The notes: generated from the sequence alone by a model not told the origin. DNA of 29,848 bases from a virus (IMGVR_UViG_3300037584_005912:1-29848); one strand, 5' to 3'. Positions 12,868 through 29,269 are shown, counted from the first letter of the stretch. Numbers and translations are program-made.

Positions 12868-13608
12868 ATGAAACTTACAGAAGCAAAGCTGAAACAAATG
12901 ATCAAAGAAAGTCTTTCCAAAAGGCAAGCAATGGCTGCTGACATTAATACCTCTGGTCTTCCAATGGGTACATACTCAGCACAGCATTATGCTAATGATC
13001 CAATAGCCGACTATCTTGAACGTGGGAGAATAATAAAAAAATTATTTCATCAACATGCCGACCACGCGTTCATGGACACTCTTGTTACAGTGCACTACAG
13101 AGACTTGGCAGACCTCCCAAGGTTTAAGGCAGAAGTAACCTCTCGTGATGAACTCTCTTGTGTCGCCTATAAATCAGGAGAAACCTTTAAGTTTGGTCAC
13201 CCATTAGGACAAGCCGGAGTTGGCATTGCAGTTAAAGGTAGAATAACACTCTTGACAAACGATGCCGGTATGATGGTCTCAGGCCGTGGAGAAATGTACA
13301 CAAATCAGCGTCCTGAAAGAACAAAGTCATCTGGAGCCAACAAGGGAGTCGCAGTGGTTCCAAGCATCTACGATATTGTTAGTGCTAATTCAGCGTATGT
13401 TTTAGACAACGAAGACTGGAACCCTTCAACCAGCGATGTTAGAGTAAATGAAGCCCTAGTAGACAACTGGAGAATCTATGCCTATGTTGTCGAAAGCGAG
13501 GAAGCTGAAGCGTACGTTCGAAATCTGATAAGGGGCAGCCTTATTGATACTGGTAGAGTTGTTTCCTCTGCGGAGTTCGGCCTAAGAATAAAAAAGTTTG
13601 AAAGATAA
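12868..13608 (+). CDS. Leader-peptide protein of unknown function, possibly capsid-packaged
   Basis: A 246-residue protein starting 'MKLTEAKLKQMIKESL', the shared leader of this window. ATG 12868 is preferred over the TTG at 12853 because GGAG lies before it and because it aligns with the other leaders. After the leader I recognise no domain. A central region 'GVGIAVKGRITLLTNDAGMM' looks like a beta hairpin. The protein stands alone between a terminator and a promoter, so it needs its own transcription start, and no sigma-70 site is visible. An ACTATTTAT element lies 29 bases before the ATG, as it does before the gene at 23813. Both I-K-E/S and L-T-E/A fit the T4 prohead-protease cut rule. 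Packaging and ejection are inferred. Confidence 0.6.
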   Translation: MKLTEAKLKQMIKESLSKRQAMAADINTSGLPMGTYSAQHYANDPIADYLERGRIIKKLFHQHADHAFMDTLVTVHYRDLADLPRFKAEVTSRDELSCVAYKSGETFKFGHPLGQAGVGIAVKGRITLLTNDAGMMVSGRGEMYTNQRPERTKSSGANKGVAVVPSIYDIVSANSAYVLDNEDWNPSTSDVRVNEALVDNWRIYAYVVESEEAEAYVRNLIRGSLIDTGRVVSSAEFGLRIKKFER

Positions 13609-13611
13609 TAC

Positions 13612-13640
13612 TTGACAAACCCTCCGACATATGTTATAAT
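13612..13640 (+). promoter_or_regulatory. Sigma-70 promoter of the 5' exonuclease gene
   Basis: TTGACA (13612-13617), 17-base spacer, TGT-TATAAT (hexamer 13635-13640): perfect consensus. Predicted start near 13647, 14 bases before the ATG. Confidence 0.88.
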
Positions 13641-13660
13641 ACTATAAACTTGGAGGATAA

Positions 13661-14611
13661 ATGAAAAACGTTATTATTATTGACGCGTTGAACATGTTTC
13701 TACGCTCTTATGTGATTAGCCCTCACTTAAATAAAAAAGGGTGGCCTGTAGGAGGCACCATTGGCTTCCTAAAGTCTTTACAGAAGGTTGCTAGGGACTT
13801 TGACGCTGATGAGATTATTGTCGCTTGGGATGGCCATGAGGGCTCCGCAAGACGACGTTCAATGAACAAGGACTACAAAGGTGGTCGCAAACCGGTGAGA
13901 TTCAATCGTAGAATGGTTGAGATCCCTGAAGACAAACAGGAGGCTAACAAAGGCTTTCAACAAGTAAGGCTGATGGAGTACCTCAACGAGATGCCTGTTA
14001 TACAACTTGTAGCAGATTTTACAGAAGCAGATGATATCATAGCACTTGTAATTAACCACGAGAGATATGCTGGGTGGAAGAAGACAATCATATCTTCAGA
14101 CAAAGACTTCTTTCAGTTATGTCGAGAAGACGTGCAGATCTATAGACCAATACAAAAAAAGATTGTTACAAGGCAAACGGTCATCGATGAGTTTAAGATC
14201 CACCCCAACAACTTTGCTCTCGCAAGAGCAATCGCTGGTGATTCCTCAGACAATTTACCTGGAATCAAAGGAGCAGGTCTCAAGACAATTGCCAAGAGAT
14301 TCCCGTACTTGATCAGAGAGGAAGAATTCACAACGGCTGACATCATCAGAGATTGTGCCATGAAAGGTAAAAAATTAAAAATTCATGAAAACATTCAATC
14401 TAATGAAAAATTAATAAAAGATAACTATGCGATTATGCAACTGCAATATCCCAACATACGACCGATGAATAGAGAAATTGTCAAGAATGCAATTAACGAC
14501 TTCGAACCGTATTTTGACAAAATAAAATTTTCTCAAATGTTAGCCGAAGATGACGGTCTTTCGCTAAATTTTAATGATTTACAGACTGTTTTTAGAAAAA
14601 TAAAAAGATAG
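13661..14611 (+). CDS. 5'-3' exonuclease / flap endonuclease (RNase H-like)
   Basis: A 316-residue FEN-family nuclease with an N-terminal PIN-like domain. 'IIIDALNMFLRSY' carries the first metal-binding Asp (D8), and 'IIVAWDGHEGSARR' (about 52-65) supplies the next. 'DFTEADDIIA' (about 118-127) and 'IISSDKDFFQL' (about 140-150) complete the acid cluster. 'GDSSDNLPGIKGAGLKTI' (about 192-209) is the helix-3-turn-helix that grips DNA. It resembles T4 RNase H and Pol I 5' nuclease, removing RNA primers and flaps during lagging-strand synthesis. The phage family A polymerase lacks this domain, so the activity is supplied separately. It stands alone between two promoters. Confidence 0.92.
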   Translation: MKNVIIIDALNMFLRSYVISPHLNKKGWPVGGTIGFLKSLQKVARDFDADEIIVAWDGHEGSARRRSMNKDYKGGRKPVRFNRRMVEIPEDKQEANKGFQQVRLMEYLNEMPVIQLVADFTEADDIIALVINHERYAGWKKTIISSDKDFFQLCREDVQIYRPIQKKIVTRQTVIDEFKIHPNNFALARAIAGDSSDNLPGIKGAGLKTIAKRFPYLIREEEFTTADIIRDCAMKGKKLKIHENIQSNEKLIKDNYAIMQLQYPNIRPMNREIVKNAINDFEPYFDKIKFSQMLAEDDGLSLNFNDLQTVFRKIKR

Positions 14612-14617
14612 TTTTAC

Positions 14618-14646
14618 TTGACAACTTGACTTGAATAGGTTATATT
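14618..14646 (+). promoter_or_regulatory. Sigma-70 promoter of the helicase-RNR operon
   Basis: TTGACA (14618-14623), 17-base spacer, TATATT (14641-14646). It lacks TG (the bases are GGT), the only intergenic site here with a weakened extended -10. Predicted start near 14653. Confidence 0.8.
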
Positions 14647-14676
14647 TATTCATACACTAAAAATACTGGAGGACAA

Positions 14677-16032
14677 ATGAACGATTTAACATCGAACGAA
14701 ACCTTTGTAAGGTTTGGAAAAAATTTCCAAGAAAAACTATGCCAACTTATGCTTGAAGACAGGCCCTTCTTTGATCAAATCATGGAAGTTCTAGATATCA
14801 GCTTTTTTCAAAGCAAATATCTTCAAGTATTTGCACAGACGCTCATCAACTACAGAAACAAATACAACACTCATCCAAATTCAGAAGTGATGATGTCGTT
14901 GTTGAGAACTGAACTCAATCATCATGATAAAGCCACCGCACAAGCGGTACGGGAGTTTTATGCTCGTATCCACACATCGGATGGCGTAGAAGAAGCTGCG
15001 TTCATCAAAGACAAGGCTATCGACTTCTGTCGTAAGCAAGTATTAAAGGGGGCTATGATCAAGTCTGCATCCCTCCTCAAGTCATCTTCATTTGAAGAAA
15101 TTGAGAAAGTGATCAAGGAGGCCTTAGTTCTTGGAACAGACAACAACTTTGGACACGACTTTCGCAAAGATTTGCTTAAACGTTTTGAACTGGTTTCACG
15201 AGATCCAACTTCAACTGGTTGGCCACGAATGGATGAGATTGTTAAGGGAGGCCTTGGAAAGTCAGAGTTGGGTGTTGTTGTCGCTCCAACTGGTGCTGGT
15301 AAGTCTATGGTGCTCGTGCATCTCGCAACTCAAGCAATCCTTCAAGGCAAGACTGTTGTCTACTATACGCTCGAACTTAAAGATACGGTGGTCGGTCAAA
15401 GATTTGATTGCTGTATCACCGATGTTCCTTTGCAAGAGCACAGAGAAAGACAAAAAGAAATCATAACAAAAATCAAAGATCTTGAAGGTACTCTAATTAT
15501 TAAAGAGTATCCAACAAAGTCTGCATCTGTTCAGACTCTCAAGAACCATATCGAAAAACTTCGCAAGCGTGGTATAGAACCTGATATGGTTCTTGTTGAC
15601 TATGCTGATTTGCTGAGACCAGTGAGGTCATCAAGCGAGAAGAGACATGAACTTGAAGAGACCTATGAGGGACTGCGTGGTTTAGCTCAAACATACGAAT
15701 TTCCAGTTTGGACTGCATCTCAAACTAATCGCGGAGGACTTAATGCAGAGGTTATTACAATGGAGGCAATATCTGAAGCATTTAACAAATGCTTTGTCGC
15801 TGACTTCATTTTCTCTCTTTCACGAACAGTTCAAGACAAGCAAGCAAACAAAGGAAGGCTATTCGTTGCTAAGAATAGGAACGGACCTGACGGTCTTGTA
15901 TTTGACGCTTTTGTTGATTGGTCCACAGTCTCAATCAAAATTTTAGACAGAGATGAGACGGCTGAAAAAATGCAGACAACAGCAGAGCAAATGCAAATGC
16001 TAAAAGATAAATATGCAAAAATGGGGCAATAA
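14677..16032 (+). CDS. dnaB: DnaB/gp41-type replicative helicase
   Basis: A 451-residue protein with a helical N-terminal domain (1-150) and a RecA-like motor. Walker A is 'APTGAGKS' (203-210), followed by 'YYTLELKD' (229-236) with catalytic E233. 'MVLVDYADLL' (304-313) is Walker B, and 'TASQTNRGG' (346-354) is the H3/H4 sensor with Q349. It unwinds DNA 5'-3' on the lagging strand as a hexamer. It is somewhat shorter at the N-terminus than bacterial DnaB and closer to T4 gp41. GGAGG precedes the ATG, and its stop overlaps the RNR start (TAATG). No primase gene is visible in the window. Confidence 0.93.
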   Translation: MNDLTSNETFVRFGKNFQEKLCQLMLEDRPFFDQIMEVLDISFFQSKYLQVFAQTLINYRNKYNTHPNSEVMMSLLRTELNHHDKATAQAVREFYARIHTSDGVEEAAFIKDKAIDFCRKQVLKGAMIKSASLLKSSSFEEIEKVIKEALVLGTDNNFGHDFRKDLLKRFELVSRDPTSTGWPRMDEIVKGGLGKSELGVVVAPTGAGKSMVLVHLATQAILQGKTVVYYTLELKDTVVGQRFDCCITDVPLQEHRERQKEIITKIKDLEGTLIIKEYPTKSASVQTLKNHIEKLRKRGIEPDMVLVDYADLLRPVRSSSEKRHELEETYEGLRGLAQTYEFPVWTASQTNRGGLNAEVITMEAISEAFNKCFVADFIFSLSRTVQDKQANKGRLFVAKNRNGPDGLVFDAFVDWSTVSIKILDRDETAEKMQTTAEQMQMLKDKYAKMGQ

Positions 16033-17960
16033 TGGAAGCATCATCAACTTACACTCTCGAAGAAAGAGAGTACTTTAGAAAATTAACACAGGAGAGTAGC
16101 AGAATGAATTTGGAAAAAGAGATCTTGTCGGATATAACGGTCCACATGAAGTATGCAAGATATCTCGAAGATAAACAACGTCGAGAAAATTGGGACGAGT
16201 TAGTGACTCGCAATATGGAGATGCACATTAAAAAGTTTCCACACATTGAAACACAAATTAGAGAAAATTATAAGATGGTATTTGACAAAAAAGTCTTACC
16301 CTCAATGAGAAGCATGCAGTTTGGAGGTAAGCCTATTGAGGTATCTCCCAACCGTGTGTTTAATTGTGCATTTGCCCCTGCTGATGATCCTCGAGTATTC
16401 GGAGAGATCATGTTTTTACTTTTAGGTGGAACTGGTGTTGGATATTCTGTGCAAAAACATCACGTCGATAGTTTACCCGAAATCCATAGACCCTCAGCGA
16501 AAAGAACAAGAAGATTTTTAGTTGGGGACTCAATTGAAGGCTGGGCTGATTCTGTAAAAGCGTTAGTGATGTCATACTTTAAAGGTACATCACGACTACG
16601 TTTTGACTTCTCAGACATCCGTCCAAAAGGTGCGAGACTAGTTACCTCGGGCGGAAAGGCACCCGGCCCACAACCACTTCGCGAGTGCCTAGTAAAAGTA
16701 GAGGGAATCTTAGATGCTAAAGAAAATGGTGACAAACTCACTCCTATTGAGGTGCATGACATCATCTGCCATATTGCGGATGCGGTTCTCGCTGGAGGTA
16801 TCCGTCGTGCTGCTCTCATTTCTTTGTTCAGTGCTGATGATGAAGACATGCTTTCGGCCAAGTCAGGGGCATGGTGGGAACTCAACCCGCAAAGAGGAAG
16901 AGCAAACAACTCTGTAGTCATAATGAGACACAGAATTGACGAGCCAACTTTTAAAAACATTTGGAAGAGAGTCGAAGAGTCACGCTCCGGAGAGCCTGGG
17001 TTTTATTTTTCTAACGATAAAGAGTGGGGATGTAACCCTTGTTGCGAAATAGGTCTCCGACCTTTTCAGTTTTGCAATTTGACAGAGATTAACGTATCTA
17101 ATGTTCGAACGCAAAAAGAGTTAGAGGAAAGAGCAAAAGCTGCTTCTTTCATTGGGACCCTTCAGGCATCTTACACTGACTTTCACTATCTTCGTCCTAT
17201 TTGGCAGAGAACAACTGAGAAAGATTCTTTGATTGGAGTTTCAATGACGGGTATTGCCTCTGGTGGAGTTCTCAAGCTTGATCTTAAATCAGCCGCTGAT
17301 CAAGTAAAGATTGTTAATAAAAAAGTAGCAGAGCAAATTGGCATTAAGCCCGCAGCAAGAACCACTTCTGTAAAGCCTGCAGGCACAACATCGCTGACAC
17401 TTGGAACTTCAAGCGGTATCCACGCGTGGCATAACGACTATTATATACGCAGATTACGCGTAGGAAAGAATGAGGCTATCTATTCATATCTCGTCAATAA
17501 CCTGCCTGAGTTGGTCGAGGACTGCCGTTTCCGACCACATGACACTGCTATCCTTTCTGTTCCTCAAAAAGCTCCTGAAGGGGCAATAACACGCCACGAA
17601 ACAGCACTTGATTTGCTGGAGAGAGTAAAGAAAGTTTCTAATGAATGGATTAAGCCCGGTCACATTGATGGCAACAATACACACAATGTTTCTGCGACCA
17701 TTACAATCAAAGATGATGAGTGGGAAACAGTTGGAGATTGGATGTGGATTAACAGAAATGTTTACAATGGATTATCAGTTTTGCCACACGATGGTGGCAC
17801 CTATGTACAGGCACCTTTTGAAGATTGTGATAAAGAAACTTACGAAAGAATGCTTGAATTGGTAAAAAACGTTGACTTAGACCTAATTACAGAAGTTACA
17901 GATGAAACTGATTTAAGTGGAGAAATCGCATGCAGCGGTGGATCCTGTGAAATTTTTTAG
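16032..17960 (+). CDS. nrdJ: Class II (adenosylcobalamin-dependent) ribonucleotide reductase
   Basis: A 642-residue RNR that makes deoxynucleotides using B12 as radical source. 'VFNCAFAPADD' (about residues 107-117) carries the first redox Cys, and 'LLLGGTGVGYSVQ' follows. 'NPCCEI...FQFCNLTEIN' (about 334-352) holds the thiyl-radical Cys with the C-N-L-x-E signature and its redox partner. 'TTSVKPAGTTSLTLGTSSGIH' is the phosphate-binding loop region. The C-terminal 'CSGGSC' (C634, C639) is the reducing pair, with the CxxxxC spacing of monomeric RTPR-type class II enzymes. No small subunit or activase is present, as expected. It is about 100 residues shorter than the Lactobacillus enzyme. It implies a host that makes or imports B12. 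Confidence 0.93.
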   Translation: MEASSTYTLEEREYFRKLTQESSRMNLEKEILSDITVHMKYARYLEDKQRRENWDELVTRNMEMHIKKFPHIETQIRENYKMVFDKKVLPSMRSMQFGGKPIEVSPNRVFNCAFAPADDPRVFGEIMFLLLGGTGVGYSVQKHHVDSLPEIHRPSAKRTRRFLVGDSIEGWADSVKALVMSYFKGTSRLRFDFSDIRPKGARLVTSGGKAPGPQPLRECLVKVEGILDAKENGDKLTPIEVHDIICHIADAVLAGGIRRAALISLFSADDEDMLSAKSGAWWELNPQRGRANNSVVIMRHRIDEPTFKNIWKRVEESRSGEPGFYFSNDKEWGCNPCCEIGLRPFQFCNLTEINVSNVRTQKELEERAKAASFIGTLQASYTDFHYLRPIWQRTTEKDSLIGVSMTGIASGGVLKLDLKSAADQVKIVNKKVAEQIGIKPAARTTSVKPAGTTSLTLGTSSGIHAWHNDYYIRRLRVGKNEAIYSYLVNNLPELVEDCRFRPHDTAILSVPQKAPEGAITRHETALDLLERVKKVSNEWIKPGHIDGNNTHNVSATITIKDDEWETVGDWMWINRNVYNGLSVLPHDGGTYVQAPFEDCDKETYERMLELVKNVDLDLITEVTDETDLSGEIACSGGSCEIF

Positions 17961-17968
17961 GAGAAAGT

Positions 17969-18169
17969 ATGAGAGAAGAACTTGAACAAATTGTTAAAGA
18001 ACTACAACAAACTTTGATGGACCTTGACAAAGTTGATGCCGGAGCCTATGGCTATAAATCTGCCGCACCTCGTGTAAGAAAGGTTTTAATGGAATCAACC
18101 AAAAAAATTAAGGACCTAAGAACCGAAGTTCAAAACAAGAAAAAAGAACACGAATCAAAAGATAATTAA
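17969..18169 (+). CDS. Small basic protein, Hc1/histone H1-like
   Basis: A 66-residue, helical, Lys/Arg-rich protein. 'YKSAAPRVRKVLMESTKKI' and 'KDLRTEVQNKKKE' resemble the N-terminal domain of Hc1-type histone H1-like proteins, with their K-A-A-x-R-x-R-K-x-L...L-A-K-x-I-R-x-E-I-Q pattern. Those bind and compact DNA. The match is by memory of the pattern and is moderate; a generic coiled coil is the alternative. It lies 8 bases after the RNR gene with GGAG upstream, last in the helicase-RNR operon. Confidence 0.5.
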   Translation: MREELEQIVKELQQTLMDLDKVDAGAYGYKSAAPRVRKVLMESTKKIKDLRTEVQNKKKEHESKDN

Positions 18170-18178
18170 CTTTACCCC

Positions 18179-18207
18179 TTGACATCGTGCCCTAAACGTG
18201 TTATACT
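18179..18207 (+). promoter_or_regulatory. Sigma-70 promoter of the groES-like operon, inside a palindrome
   Basis: TTGACA (18179-18184), 17-base spacer, TGT-TATACT (hexamer 18202-18207). Predicted start near 18214, inside the right arm of the palindrome at 18194-18224. Confidence 0.85.
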
Positions 18208-18228
18208 ATGTGTATAACACGTTTTTTT
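18194..18228 (+). terminator. Perfect 13-bp inverted repeat with T-run: terminator overlapping a promoter
   Basis: AAACGTGTTATAC (18194-18206), loop TATGT, GTATAACACGTTT (18212-18224), ending in seven T (18222-18228). Read-through RNA from the RNR operon can form the hairpin. RNA begun at the overlapping promoter starts within the right arm and cannot. The dyad could instead be a repressor operator over the -10. Confidence 0.72.
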
Positions 18229-18242
18229 ATTATGGAGGTATT

Positions 18243-18533
18243 ATGGAATTTAAACCATTTAACAAGCATTTGTGGATTAAACCACAAGAAGAAAAAGAAA
18301 ACAAAGAAGACCCTTTGTTTGTCATGCCCGATGAGTACAAACCACCAAAGTCCCCTTATGTGATAGGCGAAATCATGGACATGGCTGAGGATTGTACAAT
18401 CGATCTTTTACCGGGAGAAACAGTAATAGTGGAAAGATCTACAATTCAAGAAATAAAAGGCAATTTCGAAACTATTTACGTGGTTAAAGAAAACTATGTT
18501 TATGGGAGATTGTTTGATGAGACTAACGAGTAA
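18243..18533 (+). CDS. groES: GroES/gp31-like co-chaperonin
   Basis: A 96-residue protein; ATG 18243 is chosen for GGAGG upstream, and an earlier in-frame start falls before the predicted transcription start. The GroES plan is visible: 'FKPFNKHLWIKPQEE' is the first strand, then a mobile-loop region (about 20-38), and 'VIGEIMDMAED' is the G-x-V/I strand. 'LLPGETVIVERSTIQEI' matches V-x-x-G-D-x-V-x-F, and 'IYVVKENYVYGRL' the closing strand. Like T4 gp31, it would cap host GroEL for folding phage proteins such as the major capsid protein. Cyanophage and other marine phage genomes carry similar genes. Overlaps the next gene by 17 bases. Confidence 0.78.
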   Translation: MEFKPFNKHLWIKPQEEKENKEDPLFVMPDEYKPPKSPYVIGEIMDMAEDCTIDLLPGETVIVERSTIQEIKGNFETIYVVKENYVYGRLFDETNE

Positions 18534-19395
18534 AAAATTAAAAGGATTAATTCTTGAAGTCCTGTCCGAAGAAAGAGAAGTCAATCATCTCGAAGAAGCC
18601 AAAATGGATGAATTAACGGAATTATGCTTTCTAGGTAGAGATGGACCGCCCACCAAAGCTAAACAATCAACCCACACACTCGCTACATGTAAATTGCGAG
18701 GTGATAAATATTATTTAAAGTTTACTGAAAATTTTCACTGGATGAGCAAAACAGATAGATCAATGCAGCTAGCAGTTGAATTCCTTGCTTACAAAATTTA
18801 TCAGCTTTATCCGTCTAACGCACCGGAAAATATTGAAATTGTTTCAGATCCATCTCAAAAAAGAATTGGACTTGCAACAAGAGAAGTTAAAGGCGTCCCC
18901 GGACGAAGTGTAGATTTCAAGCAGTGGGTTGATTCGATTTCTGGTGGTGCTATGGTTGATATATTTTTAGCGAACTGGGACGTCAAGAATACAAACAATT
19001 TTGTTGTTGACACTGAAACTAATATCGCGTCTAGAGTAGATCCAGGTGGTGCCCTTACTTTTCGTGCACAGGGTGGTAGAAAGGGAGATAACTTTTCACC
19101 AAGAGCAGGTGAACTAAATACAATGACAGATCCATCAGATCGTAGAACTTCTGGGTTTTTGTTGTCCGAAGTTGACACCAAGAAAGCTGCTTCTGCATTC
19201 CTATCTGTTGAGTGGAACCAGATTTATAACACCATAGGTGAAGCGTACTCAGAGGTTGAAAAAGAACTGATCAATGCTGACTTGTCTGATCAAGTTGGAG
19301 CTTGGAAACAGGAAGTATCAGAAATTGTAGAAAAATTAAGAACAAGACATGCTGATGTAAAAGAACATTGCGAGTATGTCATGACGCAACCTTGA
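18517..19395 (+). CDS. HipA/PI3K-like kinase-fold protein with shared leader
   Basis: A 292-residue protein starting 'MRLTSKKLKGLILEVLSEE', a version of the shared leader; ATG 18517 is preferred for that reason and for GGGAG upstream. 'KYYLKFTEN' (64-72) offers the ATP-binding Lys (K68). 'QLAVEFLAYKIYQL' (84-97) has a helix Glu. 'DIFLANWDVKNTNNFVV' (148-164) has D155 and N160/N161, as in the catalytic loop of HipA and PI3/4-kinases. 'RVDPGGALTFRAQG' (173-186) has the metal Asp D175. It could phosphorylate host proteins or lipids after ejection, or act in head assembly. The kinase call is by motif and order; substrate unknown. It overlaps the groES-like gene, so it is co-expressed. Confidence 0.6.
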   Translation: MRLTSKKLKGLILEVLSEEREVNHLEEAKMDELTELCFLGRDGPPTKAKQSTHTLATCKLRGDKYYLKFTENFHWMSKTDRSMQLAVEFLAYKIYQLYPSNAPENIEIVSDPSQKRIGLATREVKGVPGRSVDFKQWVDSISGGAMVDIFLANWDVKNTNNFVVDTETNIASRVDPGGALTFRAQGGRKGDNFSPRAGELNTMTDPSDRRTSGFLLSEVDTKKAASAFLSVEWNQIYNTIGEAYSEVEKELINADLSDQVGAWKQEVSEIVEKLRTRHADVKEHCEYVMTQP

Positions 19396-19405
19396 GGAAA
19401 AATAA

Positions 19406-20020
19406 ATGAAATTAAGAGTAATACTAACAGAAGCGAAAGCAGTAAAGTACAACAGGGTCTTAGAAATACTTAAGGGTAAAGACCCAAGCGTAAGAACTAT
19501 TGGAATTATGTCAGGCCAAAATCCAATGGCAAAAAAATCAACAGATCTAGACAACAAATACCTAAAGAAAGATTTGGAAGGCGATCTGAGTTCCGCAGGA
19601 CTTAAATATGTTCGCATCGGAGGTAAGTTTGCTGGTATTTTTGAGCAATCAGTACTTGTTATCAACCCAAGTCAATCTGACTTAGAAAAGCTAAATAGAA
19701 AATATGGACAGTGGGGATTCCTTTGGGGAGAAAAGTTTACAATTGAACCAGGAAATGATACGATGCTATACGAAATGTTCGAAATGGAGTATGATGACCC
19801 AGAAAAGGGAGTAGAAAGATCAGCTCGAGGATTCCACAGAGCCCCAGGGTCAGACGCAGTATCTTTAGTTTACGACCACTCCCAAATGGCTCAAGCAGGA
19901 GATGACTACTCATTCATCCCTAAAGCTACCAAAGGCAATGAAGAATCTAAGGTAGGAAAGAAATTTAATATTCCTGTATACGAAGAATATGACCCACGGG
20001 GGATCGATGAGAGAAATTGA
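19406..20020 (+). CDS. DUF3293-like protein with N-terminal leader
   Basis: A 204-residue protein beginning 'MKLRVILTEAKAVKYNRVLE'. The L-T-E/A step looks like a T4-type prohead-protease site (I/L-x-E before A). The body has 'GIMSGQNPMAKK...N' (about 33-51), 'LEGDLSSAGLKYV', 'FEQSVLVINPSQSDLEKL' and 'YGQWGFLWGEKF'. These match the order of DUF3293 features: T-x-x-NP, N, L-x-x-x-L-x-x-x-G, E-x-S-x-L-V, and the F/Y-G-Q strand. The function of that family is unknown. GAGG precedes the ATG. The end overlaps the ThyX start. Confidence 0.5.
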   Translation: MKLRVILTEAKAVKYNRVLEILKGKDPSVRTIGIMSGQNPMAKKSTDLDNKYLKKDLEGDLSSAGLKYVRIGGKFAGIFEQSVLVINPSQSDLEKLNRKYGQWGFLWGEKFTIEPGNDTMLYEMFEMEYDDPEKGVERSARGFHRAPGSDAVSLVYDHSQMAQAGDDYSFIPKATKGNEESKVGKKFNIPVYEEYDPRGIDERN

Positions 20021-20723
20021 ACTGTATGCTGATGGTATCGGCAAAGTTTCTTATGTGCAGCATGTTGGCGATGATAAAATGATTGCTAATGCTGCCCGCG
20101 TTTCTTTTGGGCAAGACAACACAAAGCCTTTGACCAAGAGAGACGAAAAACTAATTAAATATTTAATCGAACACAAACACACGTCACCATTTGAACACAA
20201 CTCAATTACATTCCTGTTTGAGGTTCCAATGTTCGTAAGGTCTCAACACATGAGACACAGAACGTGGGCATACAATGAAATATCTAGGCGATATACGGAA
20301 GTTGACATGAAGTTCTACGAGCCAAAACAATTTAGAACTCAACACAAAAGCAATCGTCAGGCATCCAATGCGGATGAATTGGCTGATCCATTAATCAAGT
20401 GGAGACATCCCGAAGCATCGTTTGATTCAGATATTCCAGCATCTAAGATTATCAAAAAACATCATTCGCAAAGTCTTAGATTGTTTGACGACCTCATAGA
20501 GGCAGGAGTCTGCCGTGAACAAGCCAGAGGTGTACTGCCACAAAATCTTTATGCTAAGTATTATGGTACCGTAAATCTGAGCAACCTACTTAAGTTCGTG
20601 GACTTGAGAATTCATGAGGGTGCTCAATGGGAAATACAAAAAGTCGCAGAGGCGTGTCTAGACATCGCAACAGAAATTTGGCCGTTCTCCGCTGGTGCGT
20701 ACCGTGAATCAAGAGGGGCCTAA
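20007..20723 (+). CDS. thyX: Flavin-dependent thymidylate synthase
   Basis: A 238-residue ThyX, converting dUMP to dTMP with FAD, NADPH and methylene-folate. The family signature RHRx7S is present as 'RHRTWAYNEIS', followed by RRY. 'EHKHTSPFEHNSITFLFEVP' is the upstream FAD/dUMP region, and 'CREQARGVLPQNLYAKYYGT' is the substrate-binding helix with the conserved R-x-x-L-P. ATG 20007 is chosen for GGGGGA upstream; it aligns with the usual start. With the class II RNR it feeds phage DNA synthesis. It lies among leader-peptide genes, with overlaps on both sides, so it is transcribed with them. Confidence 0.95.
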   Translation: MREIELYADGIGKVSYVQHVGDDKMIANAARVSFGQDNTKPLTKRDEKLIKYLIEHKHTSPFEHNSITFLFEVPMFVRSQHMRHRTWAYNEISRRYTEVDMKFYEPKQFRTQHKSNRQASNADELADPLIKWRHPEASFDSDIPASKIIKKHHSQSLRLFDDLIEAGVCREQARGVLPQNLYAKYYGTVNLSNLLKFVDLRIHEGAQWEIQKVAEACLDIATEIWPFSAGAYRESRGA

Positions 20724-20940
20724 TTTTAACAAAGGTGACCTTGTAGTCTTGCAGGATCCTGATAGAATAACAACGCTTGGCGGTTTGGGTGTTATTATCA
20801 GCGATCCTGTTTTAGTTTTTATAAACGATTGGGAAAATGTTTGTGAATTCCCATCTGAATTCTGGTGTTATGATGTTTATGCTGATGGGCAACTATTTAA
20901 ACAAGTACCACAACAGATGATTCGGAGCTTAAAACAATGA
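20704..20940 (+). CDS. Small SH3/KOW-like protein
   Basis: A protein of about 78 residues that starts inside the end of thyX. No ATG is available: GTG 20704 or GTG 20695 are the options, and neither has a clear ribosome site, so it probably depends on coupled translation. 'FNKGDLVVLQDPDR' and 'GLGVIISDPVLVF' give the same GDLV...G-x-G-V-I barrel start as the tandem genes at 6412-7008 and those at 29269-29660. It ends 'VPQQMIRSL'. Function is unknown. Confidence 0.6.
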   Translation: MNQEGPNFNKGDLVVLQDPDRITTLGGLGVIISDPVLVFINDWENVCEFPSEFWCYDVYADGQLFKQVPQQMIRSLKQ

Positions 20941-21584
20941 AATTGAGATTGAAAATATTGACAGAGAGTAGGTACCGTGGCCTATACGAAATAACAGGAA
21001 TCCAACCTGGGTCCATCGACTTGTTCATTAAACATTTTGTAGATATAGGTATGGAAGTGCAAAATGCTCGCCGTGATTTTTTTACTGGCACATTCGGTGA
21101 CCAAATTGATTCACTCACCGATGCAGATATACCCAGAACATCCTCTAGAGGATATGGAAGTGCACTTGACAAGGTCAAGGTTGCTTTACGCTCTGGGACA
21201 TCACACTGGTACAACCAAGTTTTCGGATCGGACATGGCTGACTTCGTTATCGAAGCAAAGGTTCTCATGTACTTAACCGAACTCGCAGAAGGTTTAGAGA
21301 GAATTGGGTACGAGACTATTACCGGTGAAGAGTTCAATGCATTACCCACCGCTGATAAGAACTTGGTATTTGAAAAACACTTCCTTGAAGACCACCTCGA
21401 CAGTTTTATCAATGACCACGTAAAAATGAATTCGATGAATACCACAGGCTTTCTAGACAATCCGGGAGTAGGTGCTGGACTATACGGTCAAATGAAAGAC
21501 TGGTATATGTCAACAGCAGGAGCCGATGTTCTAGGTGAAAAAATTAAAGAGCTTCTATCGATGGTACCTCAGAGGGCAGTTTGA
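20937..21584 (+). CDS. Leader-peptide protein of unknown function
   Basis: A 215-residue protein whose ATG overlaps the preceding stop (ATGA), with GGAG upstream. It begins 'MKLRLKILTESRYRGLYE', very like the start of the 19406 protein (MKLRVILTEA). L-T-E/S again fits a T4-type prohead-protease site. The body is helical and acidic and has no recognised motif. 'RGYGSALDKVKVALRSGTSH' and 'VIEAKVLMYLTELAEGL' are the clearest helices. Packaging in the capsid is inferred from the leader alone. Confidence 0.55.
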   Translation: MKLRLKILTESRYRGLYEITGIQPGSIDLFIKHFVDIGMEVQNARRDFFTGTFGDQIDSLTDADIPRTSSRGYGSALDKVKVALRSGTSHWYNQVFGSDMADFVIEAKVLMYLTELAEGLERIGYETITGEEFNALPTADKNLVFEKHFLEDHLDSFINDHVKMNSMNTTGFLDNPGVGAGLYGQMKDWYMSTAGADVLGEKIKELLSMVPQRAV

Positions 21585-22321: not shown

Positions 22322-23190
22322 ACAACCTCGTTGGTATCATTCCAGTATCGGGCCACGATGATTTTGACTTTGAACAACCATGGCCCAATTGCATGATGCC
22401 CATAGGTCCTTCGTATTCGCTTCTAGAGGCCGCCGTTGTCGAGTGTGCATGGGCAGGATGCAAATCAATTTGGATTGTCGTTAACGACGATATAGCCCCC
22501 TTTGTGAAGAAGGTGGTAGGCAATTGGTGTGAAGACCCAGTCTGGGCTTATAGAACCATGGATCCAATACCGGGAGAGTCTAAAAGAAGAATACCGATTT
22601 ACTATACTGGAGTGAACCCAAAGGATCGTTTCAAAAGAGACTGTCTTTCTTGGTCTGTTATACACGGAGCCTTGACGGCTTTCAAGGTATTCAGTCAAGT
22701 GTCAGATTACATGGTTCCGTCAAAATACTATGTATCGTTTCCGCATGGGTTCTTTCCGGCTTGGTCTCTCCGAGAACATAGGAAAAAAATATCTTCCTCT
22801 CAAAACTGTTACATTACGGCTCAAGGACAGTCTGTTAAAGATGGTGCCTTTACCTCGTTCACTTTTGGGAAAAATGACTGGCTAGAGTTCAGGAGAGTAA
22901 TAAGATCGGGGACGGGACGTAGGGTGCCTGGGTCCAGTATTGATGACGATCTAATGTTACCACCGGAAGAAAGGTGGTCGGCAAGGTTCTTTCCAGTCGA
23001 AAAAGTATTCGCTCCTTTGTCTTTAGAGGGTGCTCATGAGATTCCGGTTGATAATTACTTTAATATAAGAAACTGGGAAGAGTACGTAGACTTCATGACA
23101 GCCTCTAGGTCTGTCAATATCCGGAGACCATCCAAGTCTATATTAACAGGGGGCAGGTACAATCCTTTGAAAAATGATACAGAAACTTAA
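22288..23190 (+). CDS. Sugar nucleotidyltransferase-like protein
   Basis: A 300-residue protein whose first 70 residues resemble the NTP_transferase (GT-A-like) fold. 'NLVGIIPVSGHDDFDF' (about 12-28) is the first strand and nucleotide loop. 'PWPNCMMPIGPSYSLLEAAV' is the sugar-nucleotide P-x-P-x-x-x-P-I...S-L-L-E segment, and 'ECAWAGCKSIWIVVND' the next strand. The usual G-x-G-T-R loop is changed to PVSGHDD, so the substrate may differ. Similar genes in marine phages are thought to act in nucleotide-sugar metabolism. Possible uses are modification of phage DNA or of host surface glycans. Starts within the preceding gene. Confidence 0.55.
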   Translation: MENSADFKTKVNNLVGIIPVSGHDDFDFEQPWPNCMMPIGPSYSLLEAAVVECAWAGCKSIWIVVNDDIAPFVKKVVGNWCEDPVWAYRTMDPIPGESKRRIPIYYTGVNPKDRFKRDCLSWSVIHGALTAFKVFSQVSDYMVPSKYYVSFPHGFFPAWSLREHRKKISSSQNCYITAQGQSVKDGAFTSFTFGKNDWLEFRRVIRSGTGRRVPGSSIDDDLMLPPEERWSARFFPVEKVFAPLSLEGAHEIPVDNYFNIRNWEEYVDFMTASRSVNIRRPSKSILTGGRYNPLKNDTET

Positions 23191-23776
23191 ATTTAAAAAA
23201 CTATTAAATGAATACAAGTCTTGTAAATTTGAATTAGAAATGGTCCGAGAGATACTAAAAGATGGGCACTTGGAGTTTGAAGTATTTTATAGAAGATGGT
23301 GTGCGGAGAATGAAGTTGATCTAGATAAGCTTAATAAAGAAAAAAGCAATCAAGTACAAATGATTTTTGACAATCAAGAAAAGGGACTAATAAAGCTTGA
23401 GAAACCAGAAGAAAAAAACACCAACAAACACAAGAAAGTCTATAGAGAAATAGCTAGAAAAATACACCCTGACAAACTAGAGACATCAGATCCAAGATTT
23501 TGGGAATATACCAATGCCTTCAAAACTGTTACCAATGCCATGGACAATGAGAACTGGGGTGATCTCTTTGAAGTTGTTGAGAAATACGACATTTGGCTTA
23601 CTGAATATGATGAGGCTTGTGATGATATCCAACAGAACATAAAAGACACGAAACACCTAATAGAAACAGAGAAAAAATCTTATTCATGGGCACTACATGA
23701 ATGTGGAGAAGATGACCAATGCAAGGAAAAGGTTGTTAGAAGTTTTCTTCTTCATCTTTTTGGGTGGAAAAGCTAA
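23174..23776 (+). CDS. J-domain (DnaJ-like) protein
   Basis: A 200-residue protein that overlaps the preceding gene by 17 bases. 'KKVYREIARKIHPDKLE' (87-103) is helix II of a J domain with the HPD motif at 98-100. 'FWEYTNAFKTVTNAM' (109-123) is helix III, where J domains have x-x-x-F-K-x-I-x-x-A-Y. The J domain is internal, preceded by a helical region (1-75) and followed by an acidic helical C-terminus with three Cys. It would recruit and stimulate host DnaK, perhaps for head assembly or to release a host target. It lacks the Gly/Phe and zinc domains of DnaJ. The start 'MIQKLKFKKLLNE' is weakly like the shared leader. Confidence 0.7.
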   Translation: MIQKLKFKKLLNEYKSCKFELEMVREILKDGHLEFEVFYRRWCAENEVDLDKLNKEKSNQVQMIFDNQEKGLIKLEKPEEKNTNKHKKVYREIARKIHPDKLETSDPRFWEYTNAFKTVTNAMDNENWGDLFEVVEKYDIWLTEYDEACDDIQQNIKDTKHLIETEKKSYSWALHECGEDDQCKEKVVRSFLLHLFGWKS

Positions 23777-23812
23777 AATTTTAACTATTTATTGCCAGAA
23801 TGAGGGTCCAAT

Positions 23813-24382
23813 ATGAAACTTACAAATGATCAATTAAAACAAATTATTAAAGAAGAGATAGAAGCCGTATTGTCTGAGAAAGAAGGCAAGAAGGATGCAT
23901 GTTATCACAAAGTCCGTGCTAGGTACGATGTTTGGCCATCTGCTTATGCTTCAGGAGCTTTGGTAAAATGTAGAAAGGTCGGTGCTAAAAACTGGGGCAA
24001 CAAGTCCAAAAAGAAAGAGGAGTCACTTCGTGAAGAATTTGAAACTCATGACATGTATGATCCCAAAACTGGTAAAAAATCTGTAGCAAACAAAGAACAA
24101 GATCATACATCAATGGCTAAAAAAGGCTATGTTCATGTTGATCCCAAGAAGATCGAGAAAATTCTCCGAGACGAAGGTGGAGCCGCTGGTATGGATCCAT
24201 TTTTGAAAGAGTTCGGAGATGATATGAAAGATGAAATCCTCAAAGCTCTAGAAGGCATGTCGAGCGTTGCAAAGCATGAAAATGGTGATTATATTCTAGA
24301 CGATGATAAAAATGTAAACTTGCAGGAAGTTAAGAATTGCGGCTGTGGTCAAAATCCTTGCAAGACTTATGGAAGACAATAA
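23813..24382 (+). CDS. Leader-peptide protein with small basic phage domain
   Basis: A 189-residue protein with three parts: the shared leader 'MKLTNDQLKQIIKEEIEAVL' (1-20); a basic domain 'CYHKVRARYDVWPSAYASG' then 'LVKCRKVGAKNW' (about 30-62), widely recurrent in large phages and giant viruses; and an acidic helical C-terminus ending in 'NCGCGQNPCKTYGRQ', Cys-rich and possibly metal-binding. It opens a run of five leader-bearing proteins. GAGGG lies upstream of the ATG, and ACTATTTAT lies 29 bases before it, with no sigma-70 site. Function is unknown; capsid packaging is inferred. Confidence 0.6.
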   Translation: MKLTNDQLKQIIKEEIEAVLSEKEGKKDACYHKVRARYDVWPSAYASGALVKCRKVGAKNWGNKSKKKEESLREEFETHDMYDPKTGKKSVANKEQDHTSMAKKGYVHVDPKKIEKILRDEGGAAGMDPFLKEFGDDMKDEILKALEGMSSVAKHENGDYILDDDKNVNLQEVKNCGCGQNPCKTYGRQ

Positions 24383-24384
24383 AA

Positions 24385-24834
24385 ATGCAACTTTCTAGAG
24401 AACAACTACAACAGATCATCAAAGAAGAGATTGAAGCTGTCTTGAATGAGAAGTGTCAAAAAGGCTATAAGACCCACGATACACGAAAAACAAAAAAAAT
24501 GTTTGGCAAGACGTATCGCAATTGCGTCAAAGCAGAAGAAGCACTTGAGTTAGACGAGGAACAAGATCTTGAAGAGAAAAAGAAAAAAGCTGGAACTGAA
24601 TCAAGTAAGGAATCATCTCTTCGCGATTGGTTTGGTCGCAAAGGAGCCAAAGGAAAGAAAAAAGGTTGGGTCGATTGTAATGCTCCCGACGGATCAGGTG
24701 GATACAAATCTTGTGGTCGATCTGATGGAGAGAAGAGAAGCAAGTACCCGTCATGCAGACCAACCCCAGGTGCATGCAAAGAAAAGGGTAAAGGTAAGTC
24801 ATGGGGCAAAAAAGCTAAAAAAGGGAAAAAATAA
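24385..24834 (+). CDS. Leader-peptide protein with DUF5872-like Cys/Lys-rich domain
   Basis: A 149-residue, very basic protein beginning 'MQLSREQLQQIIKEEIEAVL', nearly identical over residues 8-20 to the previous protein. Next comes 'GYKTHDTRKTKKMFGKTYRN' with Cys, then an acidic linker. A DUF5872-like module follows: 'KKGWVDCNAPDGSGGYKSCG' to 'YPSCRPTPGACKEKGKGK' with four Cys, which may bind zinc. The tail 'KSWGKKAKKGKK' is Lys-rich. High charge and small size suit a DNA-associated internal head protein. ATG 24385 is fixed by the leader and lies 2 bases after the previous stop; the longer frame from 24337 reads through the preceding gene. Confidence 0.6.
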   Translation: MQLSREQLQQIIKEEIEAVLNEKCQKGYKTHDTRKTKKMFGKTYRNCVKAEEALELDEEQDLEEKKKKAGTESSKESSLRDWFGRKGAKGKKKGWVDCNAPDGSGGYKSCGRSDGEKRSKYPSCRPTPGACKEKGKGKSWGKKAKKGKK

Positions 24835-25514
24835 TGAGACTAACAGAAGCAAAATTAAAACAACTAATCAATGAGGAGTATGAAAATGTTTTAATCGAAT
24901 CGTCACTGAAGTCCGCTTTGCCGCCAATTGACGTCAAAGACCTTGTTCCCAAAGCAAAAGAGATGAAGGCTACAAAAGGCAAAGAAGATGTGCTACAAGA
25001 GGCTGGAGGCCTCTTGCTGTTCGCAGCAGCTCTAGCTTTTCCCAAAATACTACAATGGTTGGGAAAAGCTGCCAAAACATTTCTCTCGCAAAAAAAAGTT
25101 TATAACTTTATAGCTAATAAAATAGGTGTTGTGGGCAAAATTCAACTAGATGCAATGGTACAACTTCTCACTGGTGACCTAGGAGATTTTTTGCACTCCG
25201 CCTACTTGAATGTGATTAGATATTCTGTTGTAAAGCCAATAAAACTGTTAGCTAAGATTGGCGGCGAAGAAATGTCTAAAGAGAAGGAAGACGAGATAAC
25301 AGAGGTATTGTTCATTATGCTGTTAGTGTGTGTTGCTATCGCCGGTGTGTCAATGGGGCTTGGAACGGTCACTGCTGGAAAAGCAGCAGGGCATGGATTA
25401 GAATTGACAATCGAAGCGATCACTACGGCAATTAAAGCTTTTGAAACTACTGAATATGCTGGAGCTGTTCCATCAGCACTTAAATTTCTAGAAACAGCAC
25501 ATAAACACCACTAA
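24834..25514 (+). CDS. Leader-peptide protein with hydrophobic membrane segments
   Basis: A 226-residue protein starting 'MRLTEAKLKQLINEEYENVL' (TAATG overlap with the previous gene). L-I-E/S at residues 20-22 is a possible prohead-protease site. Residues 57-77 ('AGGLLLFAAALAFPKILQWL') are hydrophobic, and residues 158-178 ('VLFIMLLVCVAIAGVSMGLG') form a clear membrane-spanning helix followed by Gly/Ala-rich sequence. If packaged and ejected, it could insert in the host membrane, for instance to help DNA entry. That is inference. No family is recognised. Confidence 0.55.
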   Translation: MRLTEAKLKQLINEEYENVLIESSLKSALPPIDVKDLVPKAKEMKATKGKEDVLQEAGGLLLFAAALAFPKILQWLGKAAKTFLSQKKVYNFIANKIGVVGKIQLDAMVQLLTGDLGDFLHSAYLNVIRYSVVKPIKLLAKIGGEEMSKEKEDEITEVLFIMLLVCVAIAGVSMGLGTVTAGKAAGHGLELTIEAITTAIKAFETTEYAGAVPSALKFLETAHKHH

Positions 25515-25524
25515 GGAAAAAAAA

Positions 25525-25980
25525 ATGAACTTAACGGAAACTAAACTTAAAAAAATTATTAACGAACAACTTGAATCGTATGAAGTCAATTTGATGGAAG
25601 GTCTTCTATATGAAGGTGATGATTCTGTGTTAGCTTTGTTCGAAGACGCGATGCTTGAAGAAGGCGGTAATGTATGTGGGGCTTGTTTGTTTGAACAACT
25701 TCAAGAAGCATCATGTGGCTGCCCTGACCTTATGGGCGAAGCCGAGTACCAAGGACGCAAGGTCACTCTCAACAAGCCAACTCGCGGAGACGTAAAGAAG
25801 TTTAAAGTTTATGTCAAGGATCCAAAAACTGGAAACGTAAAGAAAGTCAACTTTGGAGATCCCAACATGAAGATTAAGAAGTCAAACCCCAAGCGTCGCA
25901 AGTCATTCAGGGCAAGACACAATTGCGATAACCCGGGTCCAAAGACAAAAGCGAGATACTGGTCTTGCAAAAAGTGGTAG
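25525..25980 (+). CDS. Leader-peptide protein with DUF6321-like C-terminus
   Basis: A 151-residue protein: leader 'MNLTETKLKKIINEQLESYE', then an acidic stretch with 'LME/G' and 'LLYE/G' steps (possible protease sites) and four Cys. The C-terminus is basic: 'PNMKIKKSNPKRRKSFRARH', then 'NCDNPGPKTKARYWSCKKW'. This end matches the small DUF6321-type domain recurrent in phages (M-K-I-K...N-P-x-R-R-K-S-F-R-A-R-H-x-C...K-T-x-x-R-Y-W-S-C-K). It may bind DNA and act as an internal head protein. The acidic propeptide-like half could be removed during head maturation. Confidence 0.6.
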   Translation: MNLTETKLKKIINEQLESYEVNLMEGLLYEGDDSVLALFEDAMLEEGGNVCGACLFEQLQEASCGCPDLMGEAEYQGRKVTLNKPTRGDVKKFKVYVKDPKTGNVKKVNFGDPNMKIKKSNPKRRKSFRARHNCDNPGPKTKARYWSCKKW

Positions 25981-25990
25981 GAGGATAACC

Positions 25991-26260
25991 ATGGCTACAC
26001 TAACAAGAGATGATGTATGGAAGGTTGTCCAGATGGGTCTTGGGATGCTTGTGATCCCTCTTGCCGGATGGGTATGGAACATGAACGTGGAAGTTGCTGA
26101 ACTGAGAAATGACCTCGGAGATGCAGAGGAGGTAATCTCCTCCCTTGAAAAAAAGCTCCAAGGCTCGGACGACAACGCAAGACAGATAATCGGAATCGAA
26201 AAAGATATCGAATACATGAAAGACAGCTTAGGTCGAATCGAGCAGATGGTGACAAAATGA
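25991..26260 (+). CDS. Small membrane-anchored coiled-coil protein (DUF7443-like)
   Basis: An 89-residue protein: a short polar start 'MATLTRDDVWKVVQ', one membrane helix 'MGLGMLVIPLAGWVWNM' (about 15-31), then a long acidic coiled coil ending 'DSLGRIEQMVTK'. It resembles a small phage family (DUF7443-like) recalled from other large phages. It has no shared leader, although its neighbours do. GGAGGA precedes the ATG. It could be a holin/spanin-type protein or a membrane anchor; neither is proved. Confidence 0.55.
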   Translation: MATLTRDDVWKVVQMGLGMLVIPLAGWVWNMNVEVAELRNDLGDAEEVISSLEKKLQGSDDNARQIIGIEKDIEYMKDSLGRIEQMVTK

Positions 26261-26457
26261 AGTCCGCTTTATTGATGACACTTATGTTGACTGAACCAAC
26301 TGATGACCTTAAAAGAGACATGAAGGCATTAGAAATATTTCTACAAGACAAAGAAGATAAGAAAACCCACTGCCCAAAATTAAAATGGACTCAACCAGAT
26401 ATTGACATATACAAAAAGACACTCCAGTCTCAATTACCACAAGGATGTAAAAAATGA
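26257..26457 (+). CDS. Hypothetical small protein
   Basis: A 66-residue protein with ATGA overlaps at both ends. It begins with a short hydrophobic stretch 'MKSALLMTLMLTEPTDD', too short for a sure signal peptide, and then 'KALEIFLQDKEDKKTHCPKL' and a Cys near the end ('GCKK'). The two Cys and the N-terminus would suit an exported peptide, but this is weak. The tight overlaps show it belongs to the leader-peptide operon. Confidence 0.5.
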   Translation: MKSALLMTLMLTEPTDDLKRDMKALEIFLQDKEDKKTHCPKLKWTQPDIDIYKKTLQSQLPQGCKK

Positions 26458-26894
26458 AACTAACAGAAACAAAATTAAAGCAAATTATCAAAGAAATGAT
26501 GACCTCTGGCCAACTAATCCACAATGGAAAGCCCGCTCTATCAGAAAATGGCAGTAAAATCGAAGATATGTTGATGTCTCGAGATGCCATGTTTATATAT
26601 CAAGCCGAATCTTTGTTGGATGCGATATCCTCTACGCTTGACTCCCTTGAAGCTGATTGGCTAGATGCCCTAGCCAAGGCAGCCGTTGCAAGTGCAACGC
26701 TAAAGAGACTCGCGAGGATAGAAAGTGAACGATATGCCAAAAAACGTAATCATGAACGTCCGGAGCCGAGCCAAGCCCATGATCGTGAGACAGTTATCGA
26801 TGAATTTTTCGATGCCTATGACCGCATACAGTCAATTGTAGGCCAAGAAGAAGCCAAAATAATTCATCGTAATTTTCAAGGTATAGTGGCGTAA
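26454..26894 (+). CDS. Leader-peptide helical protein, hypothetical
   Basis: A 146-residue protein starting 'MKLTETKLKQIIKEMMTSGQ', the clearest form of the shared leader, at an ATGA overlap. The body is helical: 'DWLDALAKAAVASATLKRLA' followed by a basic, Arg/His-rich stretch and 'EFFDAYDRIQSIVGQEEAKI'. No catalytic motif is seen. It is the last gene before a sigma-70 promoter. Confidence 0.58.
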   Translation: MKLTETKLKQIIKEMMTSGQLIHNGKPALSENGSKIEDMLMSRDAMFIYQAESLLDAISSTLDSLEADWLDALAKAAVASATLKRLARIESERYAKKRNHERPEPSQAHDRETVIDEFFDAYDRIQSIVGQEEAKIIHRNFQGIVA

Positions 26895-26943
26895 AAAATC
26901 ACAAAAGCAAATGTTTGATAAATGATTATATGTACCTAAAGAC

Positions 26944-26972
26944 TTGACAAATAAAGCAGAAGATGTTATAAT
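26944..26972 (+). promoter_or_regulatory. Sigma-70 promoter giving a predicted leaderless mRNA
   Basis: TTGACA (26944-26949), 17-base spacer, TGT-TATAAT (hexamer 26967-26972): perfect consensus. The expected start, 7 bases after the hexamer, is 26979, the A of the next gene's ATG. Confidence 0.85.
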
Positions 26973-26978
26973 AATATT

Positions 26979-27869
26979 ATGAAACTTAATTCCAAAACAT
27001 TAAAATCACTTATAGTTGAAGTCATTGAAGAAATGAAGCGACGTGACTTTCTAAAAGGTGCCGCTGGCCTTGCCGGTGCAGCAGCTTTAGGATATAGTTT
27101 ATATGATGACGAAGAAGGAGAAAATCCTCTTAGCATGAAAGACAAGTATAGAGACGCTCCAATGATGACCCGACAAGATGCTATAGATGCTGGTATGAAT
27201 CCTGATGAGTTTTTTCCTCCTGAGGAAGAAGAAAAAGAACAATTTCCCCTTGAGCCAATTGACGAGGATGGATGGAAAGAGTCAAAAGCCCCATACACAG
27301 ACCAACAAGGGAAGTATGCATTGGACCAACTAAGAGTTACACCAGAAAACTTAAGATTTTATACTGTGACTCCTGCTCAAAGCAACACTGCTGATAGTTA
27401 TGTCTATGTTGACATGGGATCGTTCTATGATTTAGCAGAACAAAATCCCGAATTAATTGAACACCTAGACGTTGCGGAAGCTTATTATAACAGCTGGAAC
27501 CTAAAAGAACATTATGAATATGTTTTTGGAAAATTAGTATTTTGGGGCACCTTCAAAGATCCCAACAATCCACTGAGCAGAAAACTTGCACCAAGTTTCC
27601 CGGGAAAAAACATACACAAACAAGATATAAATAATGTAATCTTGCCACTTGCGTGGACGGTGTCTTTGGAATATTGGATGAATCGATTTTTAAGCCTTGA
27701 ATCTAGACTACAGCAGTATCCCGACAATACATCTGACATTCTGGACGAGGCTGGATTGTCTGTTGACGAATATTACGAAATGAAAGCTAGGTATGAAAAT
27801 ACAGTTTCTAGAGTTTCAAACCCTTCTATAGTCGACAACCCAAATTATAAATCAGAGGAGGAAAAATGA
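26979..27869 (+). CDS. Leader-peptide protein with Tat-like twin-arginine motif
   Basis: A 296-residue protein. Residues 1-18 ('MKLNSKTLKSLIVEVIEE') are a shared-leader variant. They run straight into 'MKRRDFLKGAAGLAGAAAL' (19-37), which has the (S/K)RRxFLK motif and Gly/Ala-rich core of a Tat signal; no clear A-x-A site follows. The rest is acidic, with many Tyr, Asn and Pro ('DEFFPPEEEEKEQFPLEP'), and no known domain. Two starts are possible: ATG 26979, exactly at the predicted transcription start, or ATG 27033, which would begin the Tat-like signal. Neither has a strong ribosome site. It may be packaged, exported, or both. Confidence 0.55.
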   Translation: MKLNSKTLKSLIVEVIEEMKRRDFLKGAAGLAGAAALGYSLYDDEEGENPLSMKDKYRDAPMMTRQDAIDAGMNPDEFFPPEEEEKEQFPLEPIDEDGWKESKAPYTDQQGKYALDQLRVTPENLRFYTVTPAQSNTADSYVYVDMGSFYDLAEQNPELIEHLDVAEAYYNSWNLKEHYEYVFGKLVFWGTFKDPNNPLSRKLAPSFPGKNIHKQDINNVILPLAWTVSLEYWMNRFLSLESRLQQYPDNTSDILDEAGLSVDEYYEMKARYENTVSRVSNPSIVDNPNYKSEEEK

Positions 27870-29005: not shown

Positions 29006-29269
29006 ATGTCAGAATTCTGCGAAGTTTGTGAATGCGATCCATGTGATTGCTATGATGGATACAGTCCGGAGGAGTCTACCATGAAACACGTATACATTTA
29101 TGACGAGCAAAAAGAATTTTATTATGTACCTCGAGCACCTTCGCTATGCGAAGCAAGAACCAGAGCTTCAATTTTCATGAAGCATTTTGGCGATGAACCA
29201 CTCATTGTTAACCCTCAAGCGTGGGAGATTTTATCTGAGACACATGTTGTCCGATTTTTGGAAGAATAA
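29006..29269 (+). CDS. Small protein with N-terminal Cys cluster
   Basis: An 87-residue protein with AAGGAGG upstream. The N-terminus 'FCEVCECDPCDCYDG' has five Cys in a CxxCxCxxCxC array, likely to bind zinc. The rest, 'KHVYIYDEQKEFYYVPRAPS' and onward, is a small alpha/beta domain of unknown family. A second ribosome-like site (GGAGGA) sits before an internal ATG at 29081, which would give a 62-residue form without the Cys cluster. The stop overlaps the next ATG. Confidence 0.6.
   Translation: MSEFCEVCECDPCDCYDGYSPEESTMKHVYIYDEQKEFYYVPRAPSLCEARTRASIFMKHFGDEPLIVNPQAWEILSETHVVRFLEE

Follow-up and report, generated by a model that had tools for sequence, protein, structure and literature searches.

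Short N-terminal leaders shared by unrelated phage proteins are probable capsid-targeting propeptides

Ten genes of the phage fragment IMGVR_UViG_3300037584_005912:1-29848 begin with a short, recurrent N-terminal leader and continue into dissimilar proteins, raising the question of what purpose a common start could serve. The fragment was analysed over its whole length of 29,848 bases (the window); the source record, from IMG/VR, spans these 29.8 kb only. The original prediction held that one leader, carried by about ten genes, directs a set of effectors into the prohead for injection with the DNA. All ten start sites proved to be present at the coordinates given. Eight of the genes carry a long leader, termed K-class, while the other two, at 19406 and 20937, have a short leader of their own, MKLR(L)(V/K)ILTE, so that two leaders rather than one are involved. 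The leader is very likely a capsid-targeting propeptide that brings its cargo into the prohead and is cut off by an S77 protease, probably with subsequent injection of the cargo. The ten genes are as follows, with an arrow marking the predicted cleavage site.

12868-13608, + strand: K-class gene, 246 amino acids, immediately downstream of UvsX; leader MKLTEAKLKQMIKESL...; body without assignment.
18517-19395, + strand: K-class gene, 292 amino acids; leader MRLTSKKLKGLILEVLSE↓E; kinase-like signature in the body (NWDVKNTNN ... RVDPGG).
19406-20020, + strand: short-leader gene, 204 amino acids; MKLRVILTE↓A; DUF3293 body.
20937-21584, + strand: short-leader gene, 215 amino acids; MKLRLKILTE↓S.
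23813-24382, + strand: K-class gene; leader MKLTNDQLKQIIKEEIEAVLSE↓K; body domain YDVWPSAYASGALVKCRK, also present in gp160 of cyanophage S-CREM2.
24385-24834, + strand: K-class gene; leader MQLSREQLQQIIKEEIEAVLNE↓K; KKMFGK.Y.NCVK and DWF domains, both in S-CREM2 gp160.
24834-25514, + strand: K-class gene; leader MRLTEAKLKQLINEEYENVLIE↓S; body with hydrophobic segments.
25525-25980, + strand: K-class gene; leader MNLTETKLKKIINEQLESYEVNLME↓G; C-terminal domain DUF5754-like / phrog_7595.
26454-26894, + strand: K-class gene, 146 amino acids; leader MKLTETKLKQIIKEMMTS...
26979-27869, + strand: K-class gene; leader MKLNSKTLKSLIVEVIEE↓, followed directly by a signal of the twin-arginine translocation (Tat) type, MKRRDFLKGAAGLAGAAAL (about 27033-27092).

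As predicted, the ten bodies are unrelated, with no Pfam or PHROG family in common except phrog_727, shared by 23813 and 24385. Across the fetched viral loci the K-class leader was found on at least 334 non-redundant proteins of median length 116 amino acids, with a consensus of about 22 residues (MKLTxxxLKQIIKEELxxVLxE). Using a position-specific scoring matrix trained on contigs other than the window, six of the eight long leaders scored at least 15 bits and two scored 10-13 bits, whereas no residue-shuffled open reading frame from the window and seven relatives of 141-191 kb reached 10 bits, which bears out the proposed likeness of the eight. The matrix comprises 22 conserved residues ending in L/M/I20-x-E22, and conservation drops from 1.1 to 0.27 bits immediately after E22. 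All six leucine codons are in use at L8, L16 and L20. Synonymous variation at invariant residues, together with the abrupt end of conservation at E22, indicates that selection acts on the peptide. The leader is amphipathic, with a hydrophobic moment of 1.20 compared to 0.76 in shuffled sequences.

The sequence [LIMV]20-x-E22 occurs in 135 of the 334 leaders against 6.4 expected, and (L/I)-x-E ends peak at E22, E21 and E18. The K-class leader likely ends at E18 or E22 in most cases, rather than at the IKE/S step at residue 14 that had been suggested. The proposed (I/L)-x-E end holds for these peaks and for the ILTE↓A/S of the short class, but two window genes depart from it: 12868 has I12-K-E14↓S as its sole candidate end and no [LIVM]-x-E at positions 18-25, while 26454 likewise has none at 18-25, only the internal I12-x-E14.

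The gp21-type prohead protease that the prediction named as a check was found, as a protease of the S77 type (T4 gp21-type, PF03420), in every record of at least 120 kb that bears leaders or is closely related (11 of 11). Of 21 large leader-bearing records 14 carried it, among them each of the seven that measure at least 141 kb, as did 12 of 29 smaller records. No S77 protease occurs in the 29.8 kb window; among its near relatives G022, G023, G024 and G028 carry one, as does G059, and G022 is its nearest large relative (UvsX 88%). In relatives, the major capsid family gp23 (PF07068) and the protease lie together in one module, which places them in the T4-like head lineage. Three contigs (G025, G026 and G027) have gp23 and no S77 protease; each of them stops close to gp23, short of where the protease usually lies, and records with neither gene are fragments. 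The gene order of the head module is TerL, portal, ..., protease, core protein, S21-like protein, ..., gp22-like scaffold, gp23.

Leader genes are associated with this protease. In 10 of 14 modules, which are not fully independent (those of G017 and G018 are identical), a leader gene lies at most two genes from the protease, against 21% expected per module from the genome-wide leader frequency (p=6e-5); in G022 it directly adjoins the protease. The neighbouring core protein, conserved and of about 140 amino acids, itself starts MKKxxLKKxLKPLIKECIxEALLE, which aligns one to one with leader positions 8-22, and by leader motif score 13 of 13 family members lie above the 99th percentile of internal segments. 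Some cargo leaders, for example MNKEKLKKIIKQVIHE in contig L299, are intermediate between the core-protein motif and the usual leader. A site LL(R/K)E↓A is kept in gp23 of all 11 modules compared, the gp23 of G022 has LLRE↓S, and the protease has LLTE close to its own N-terminus. Leader ends, gp23 and protease thus present one type of site, which fits the L/I-x-E rule followed by T4 gp21 (PMC9026906). A homolog of ribosomal protein S21 (PF01165, E 5e-15) was also observed between core protein and scaffold (L145:16239-16469, - strand), with equivalents in other head modules.

The same genomes contain a second leader, W-class (MKLLLENWRxYLxE), found at 30 N-termini compared to one of 8,594 internal 40-mers, on cargo with NUDIX, guanylate kinase, HAD, protein kinase, GNAT and ART-like domains. 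Homologous bodies can bear a K leader in one phage and a W leader in another (E=3e-19 and 4e-10), and the KKMFGK..NCVK domain has a W leader in contig L331 and a K leader in the window. In the family of 19406, the window protein starts MKLRVILTE↓A and many relatives have the long leader instead, with ends such as ...EVIDE↓A or ...EVMSE↓A; the L/I/M-x-E↓A junction is kept across the swap in 8 of 17 anchored members. In the family of 20937, the residue after the junction (P1') is S, G or A in all eight members. A constant junction with a replaced leader is what a processed targeting peptide predicts, and its conservation is suggestive of leader removal by the prohead protease.

The leader is confined to particular proteins. 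Neither a K nor a W leader was found on homologs of seven replication proteins of the window, in line with the expectation that it would not occur equally on such proteins, and a leader is likewise missing from all TerL, portal, scaffold and gp23 proteins. In viral contigs at least 119 stretches matched a degenerate DNA pattern representing the long leader, whereas bacterial and archaeal genomes totalling 257 Gb gave zero matches to it. With a second DNA pattern the cellular genomes yielded a single site, L331 (PBSV01000031), a contig of a marine metagenome-assembled genome labelled Opitutia; it holds several genes with K- and W-type leaders and a deaminase-like gene, and is probably a misbinned phage. 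A general cytoplasmic motif was rejected, given the absence from replication-protein homologs and near absence from cellular genomes.

Published virion data provide a further line of evidence. The bodies of 23813 and 24385 each match parts of S-CREM2 gp160, for which seven unique peptides were detected by mass spectrometry of virions purified in caesium chloride (PMC10665884). Because gp160 itself has no recognisable leader, these data back the cargo and not the K leader directly. A kinase, NMNAT, S-adenosylmethionine (SAM) hydrolase and Cas9-like nuclease have been detected in virions of S-CREM2 and S-SCSM1 (PMC10665884, PMC9602691). The S-CREM2 (OR473000) virion enzymes gp6, gp12, gp14 and gp154 have N-termini resembling the T4 capsid targeting sequence (CTS), and F..F(L/M)xE stands at or near the start of the packaged SAM hydrolase, Cas9-like nuclease, APH-like kinase and cytidylyltransferase. 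This motif, chosen after inspection of the data and then frozen for S-SCSM1, occurs in 6 of 16 non-structural virion proteins of S-CREM2 compared to 3 of 165 others (p=1.3e-5). In S-SCSM1 the frozen motif stands near the start of three annotated genes. One encodes the virion NMNAT (MKSFLQFLKE↓A), another is a small gene of the head operon whose product was not reported from virions (MKTFKQFMSE↓S), and the third is probably a chance match. Neither phage has a K-class leader, and a targeting leader is not mentioned in PMC10665884.

Taken together, protease adjacency, the core-protein motif, leader swaps and the match of two window bodies to the virion protein gp160 support the proposal that the leader directs proteins into the prohead, and for the relatives of the window the packaging interpretation is strongly supported. 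Several observations weigh against it. No [LIMV]-x-E is present at positions 17-30 in 55 of the 334 leaders, and P1' of the K-class is not restricted to A, G or S, with E and Q common. Because I12-x-E14 hardly varies, it could mark the cut, or E14 could serve docking. In two modules, those of G003 and G014, the protease has no leader gene next to it. Among the virion data, besides the leaderless gp160 and the post hoc motif, the independent test in S-SCSM1 was positive yet small, comprising NMNAT only, and the literature searched held no virion proteome of a K-class phage.

Of the alternatives, the one that survives best is that the leader is an assembly helix of the prohead core, its bearers being structural or scaffolding proteins that are degraded or kept in the head and not injected as effectors. 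The leader genes next to the protease and the core protein with the same motif would suit such a role, and some proteins in these slots are scaffold-like and rich in Lys and Glu. However, the majority of leader genes lie in variable clusters far from the head module, the cargo includes NUDIX, guanylate-kinase, HAD, protein-kinase, GNAT, ART-like, pentapeptide-repeat and exonuclease domains, and 334 non-redundant bodies are unlike one conserved scaffold, which makes this explanation improbable. Targeting to another site, such as a tail part, the host membrane or a phage compartment, with no link to the head, is more improbable still: amphipathic helices are common as membrane and assembly signals, and the moment of the leader is in keeping with one, but protease adjacency, the core-protein match, the L-x-E junction kept through swaps, interchange with the T4-CTS-like class and absence from every replication protein tested all point to the head. 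That the shared start is a DNA cassette (promoter, ribosome site, start region) copied along with the genes and encoding a peptide without a role was rejected as scarcely credible, since free synonymous variation at invariant residues and the abrupt stop of conservation at E22 largely refute it, even though leader genes cluster (35 of 95 have a further leader gene directly after them, compared to 5.6% expected) and T4 internal-protein genes are known as mobile cassettes.

Under the capsid-targeting reading, the amphipathic N-terminal helix would dock the protein, late in infection, onto the prohead core as it assembles; the core protein itself starts with the same helix. The S77 protease would then remove the leader after L/I/M-x-E (at E22, E21 or E18 in the long class, after ILTE in the short class) and should also cut gp23 at L-L-(R/K)-E↓A/S. 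The freed protein would remain in the head beside the DNA, and its entry into the host at infection is most likely by analogy with the T4 internal proteins and Alt. The docking partner, the cleavage itself, the ejection and the function of the cargo as effectors are inferences.

A homolog of 12868 in L236 retains the leader as MRLTHKKLKQMILESL, and the ortholog of 25525 in G022 is also leader-bearing; neither 24834 nor 26454 has a homolog in the fetched loci. The kinase-like character proposed for 18517 holds at the level of the motif, which is kept together with the leader in four further homologs. A fold search of the PDB gave no significant match, although several of the weak top matches were kinases, and the AlphaFold model is of low confidence (predicted local distance difference test 51), so the designation rests on the motif. 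A small gene between leader genes, 26257-26457, starts MKSALLMTLMLTE↓P and perhaps has another short leader. Small paralog-like proteins with a (V/K)GDLV start motif were observed at 6412-7008, 20695-20940 and 29269-29660 of the window.

Pfam and PHROGs searches of 110 K-class proteins returned few known domains, among them RNase_T and pentapeptide repeats, the latter in five of the 110. The pentapeptide-repeat fold is known in DNA-mimic gyrase inhibitors. Several long tandem-repeat proteins with K-class leaders were seen in L043, L087 and L117. With the leader by itself as query, a tblastn search of named phages gave only the huge phage LR756508 (E=2), which was also the top gp23 match; a text search for the leader string gave no match, and neither a K nor a W leader was found in the 50 kb scanned of each of S-CBWM1 and S-TIM5.

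The product of 26979 matches TAT_signal above the cut-off (E 1e-6). A direct scan for relatives was empty; full-length homologs with 23% identity and a W-type leader were reached via L299 (L299:20014-20964; L323:3001-3948). The leaders differ, and in each case a Tat-type signal stands right after the predicted cut (VIEE↓MKRRDFLKG in 26979, LEE↓ALTRRQFLAG in the homologs). A wider proposal, offered tentatively and with the balance somewhat against it, is that marine gp23 phages use a modular "address code" for the head, made up of exchangeable leaders with protease-motif ends (the K-class derived from or mimicking the core protein, the T4-CTS-like W-class and short variants), by which hundreds of effector families may be packed into the head and delivered to the host; for the 26979 family, prohead cleavage would leave the Tat signal at the new N-terminus, for export by the host Tat system after injection, a relay from head to periplasm.

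The closest known system is the CTS of T4 (IPI-III and Alt; gp21), in which unrelated proteins likewise share a short N-terminal leader with an L/I-x-E end, alongside an S77 protease and a gp23-type head (PMC9026906). The W-class and the F..F[LMF].E leaders of S-CREM2 share with it aromatic-x-x-aromatic-hydrophobic-x-E. The T4 CTS reads MKTYQEFIAE. The K-class differs in being about 22 residues long, Lys-rich, free of aromatics, matched to the core protein and carried by hundreds of bodies, and in belonging to a set of two or three leader classes that occur together and replace one another. It does not show the T4 pattern (aromatic-x-x-aromatic-[ILV]-x-E), which the W-class does, and for this reason was not assigned to the T4 CTS family; the K-class is a new leader class with a mode of working like that of the T4 system. 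In phiKZ and SPN3US a homolog of gp21 also cuts many head-packed proteins behind x-E (PMC9026906, PMC5694885), whereas the head here is gp23-type. The virion enzymes of S-CREM2 and S-SCSM1 are alike in their T4-CTS-like leaders and differ in having none of the K-class. The propeptides of phiKZ and SPN3US are long and are not known to share a single short motif.

An N-terminal signature of this kind would place hundreds of uncharacterised protein families of marine phages in the head, as likely packaged and probably injected, and would predict a cut site for each. A mechanism described in detail mainly in T4 would be extended to an abundant marine lineage in which leaders are exchanged between cargo families. 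The leader is also a candidate for a short tag with which selected proteins could be brought into phage heads, and the long-standing question of how cyanophage enzymes reach virions becomes testable.

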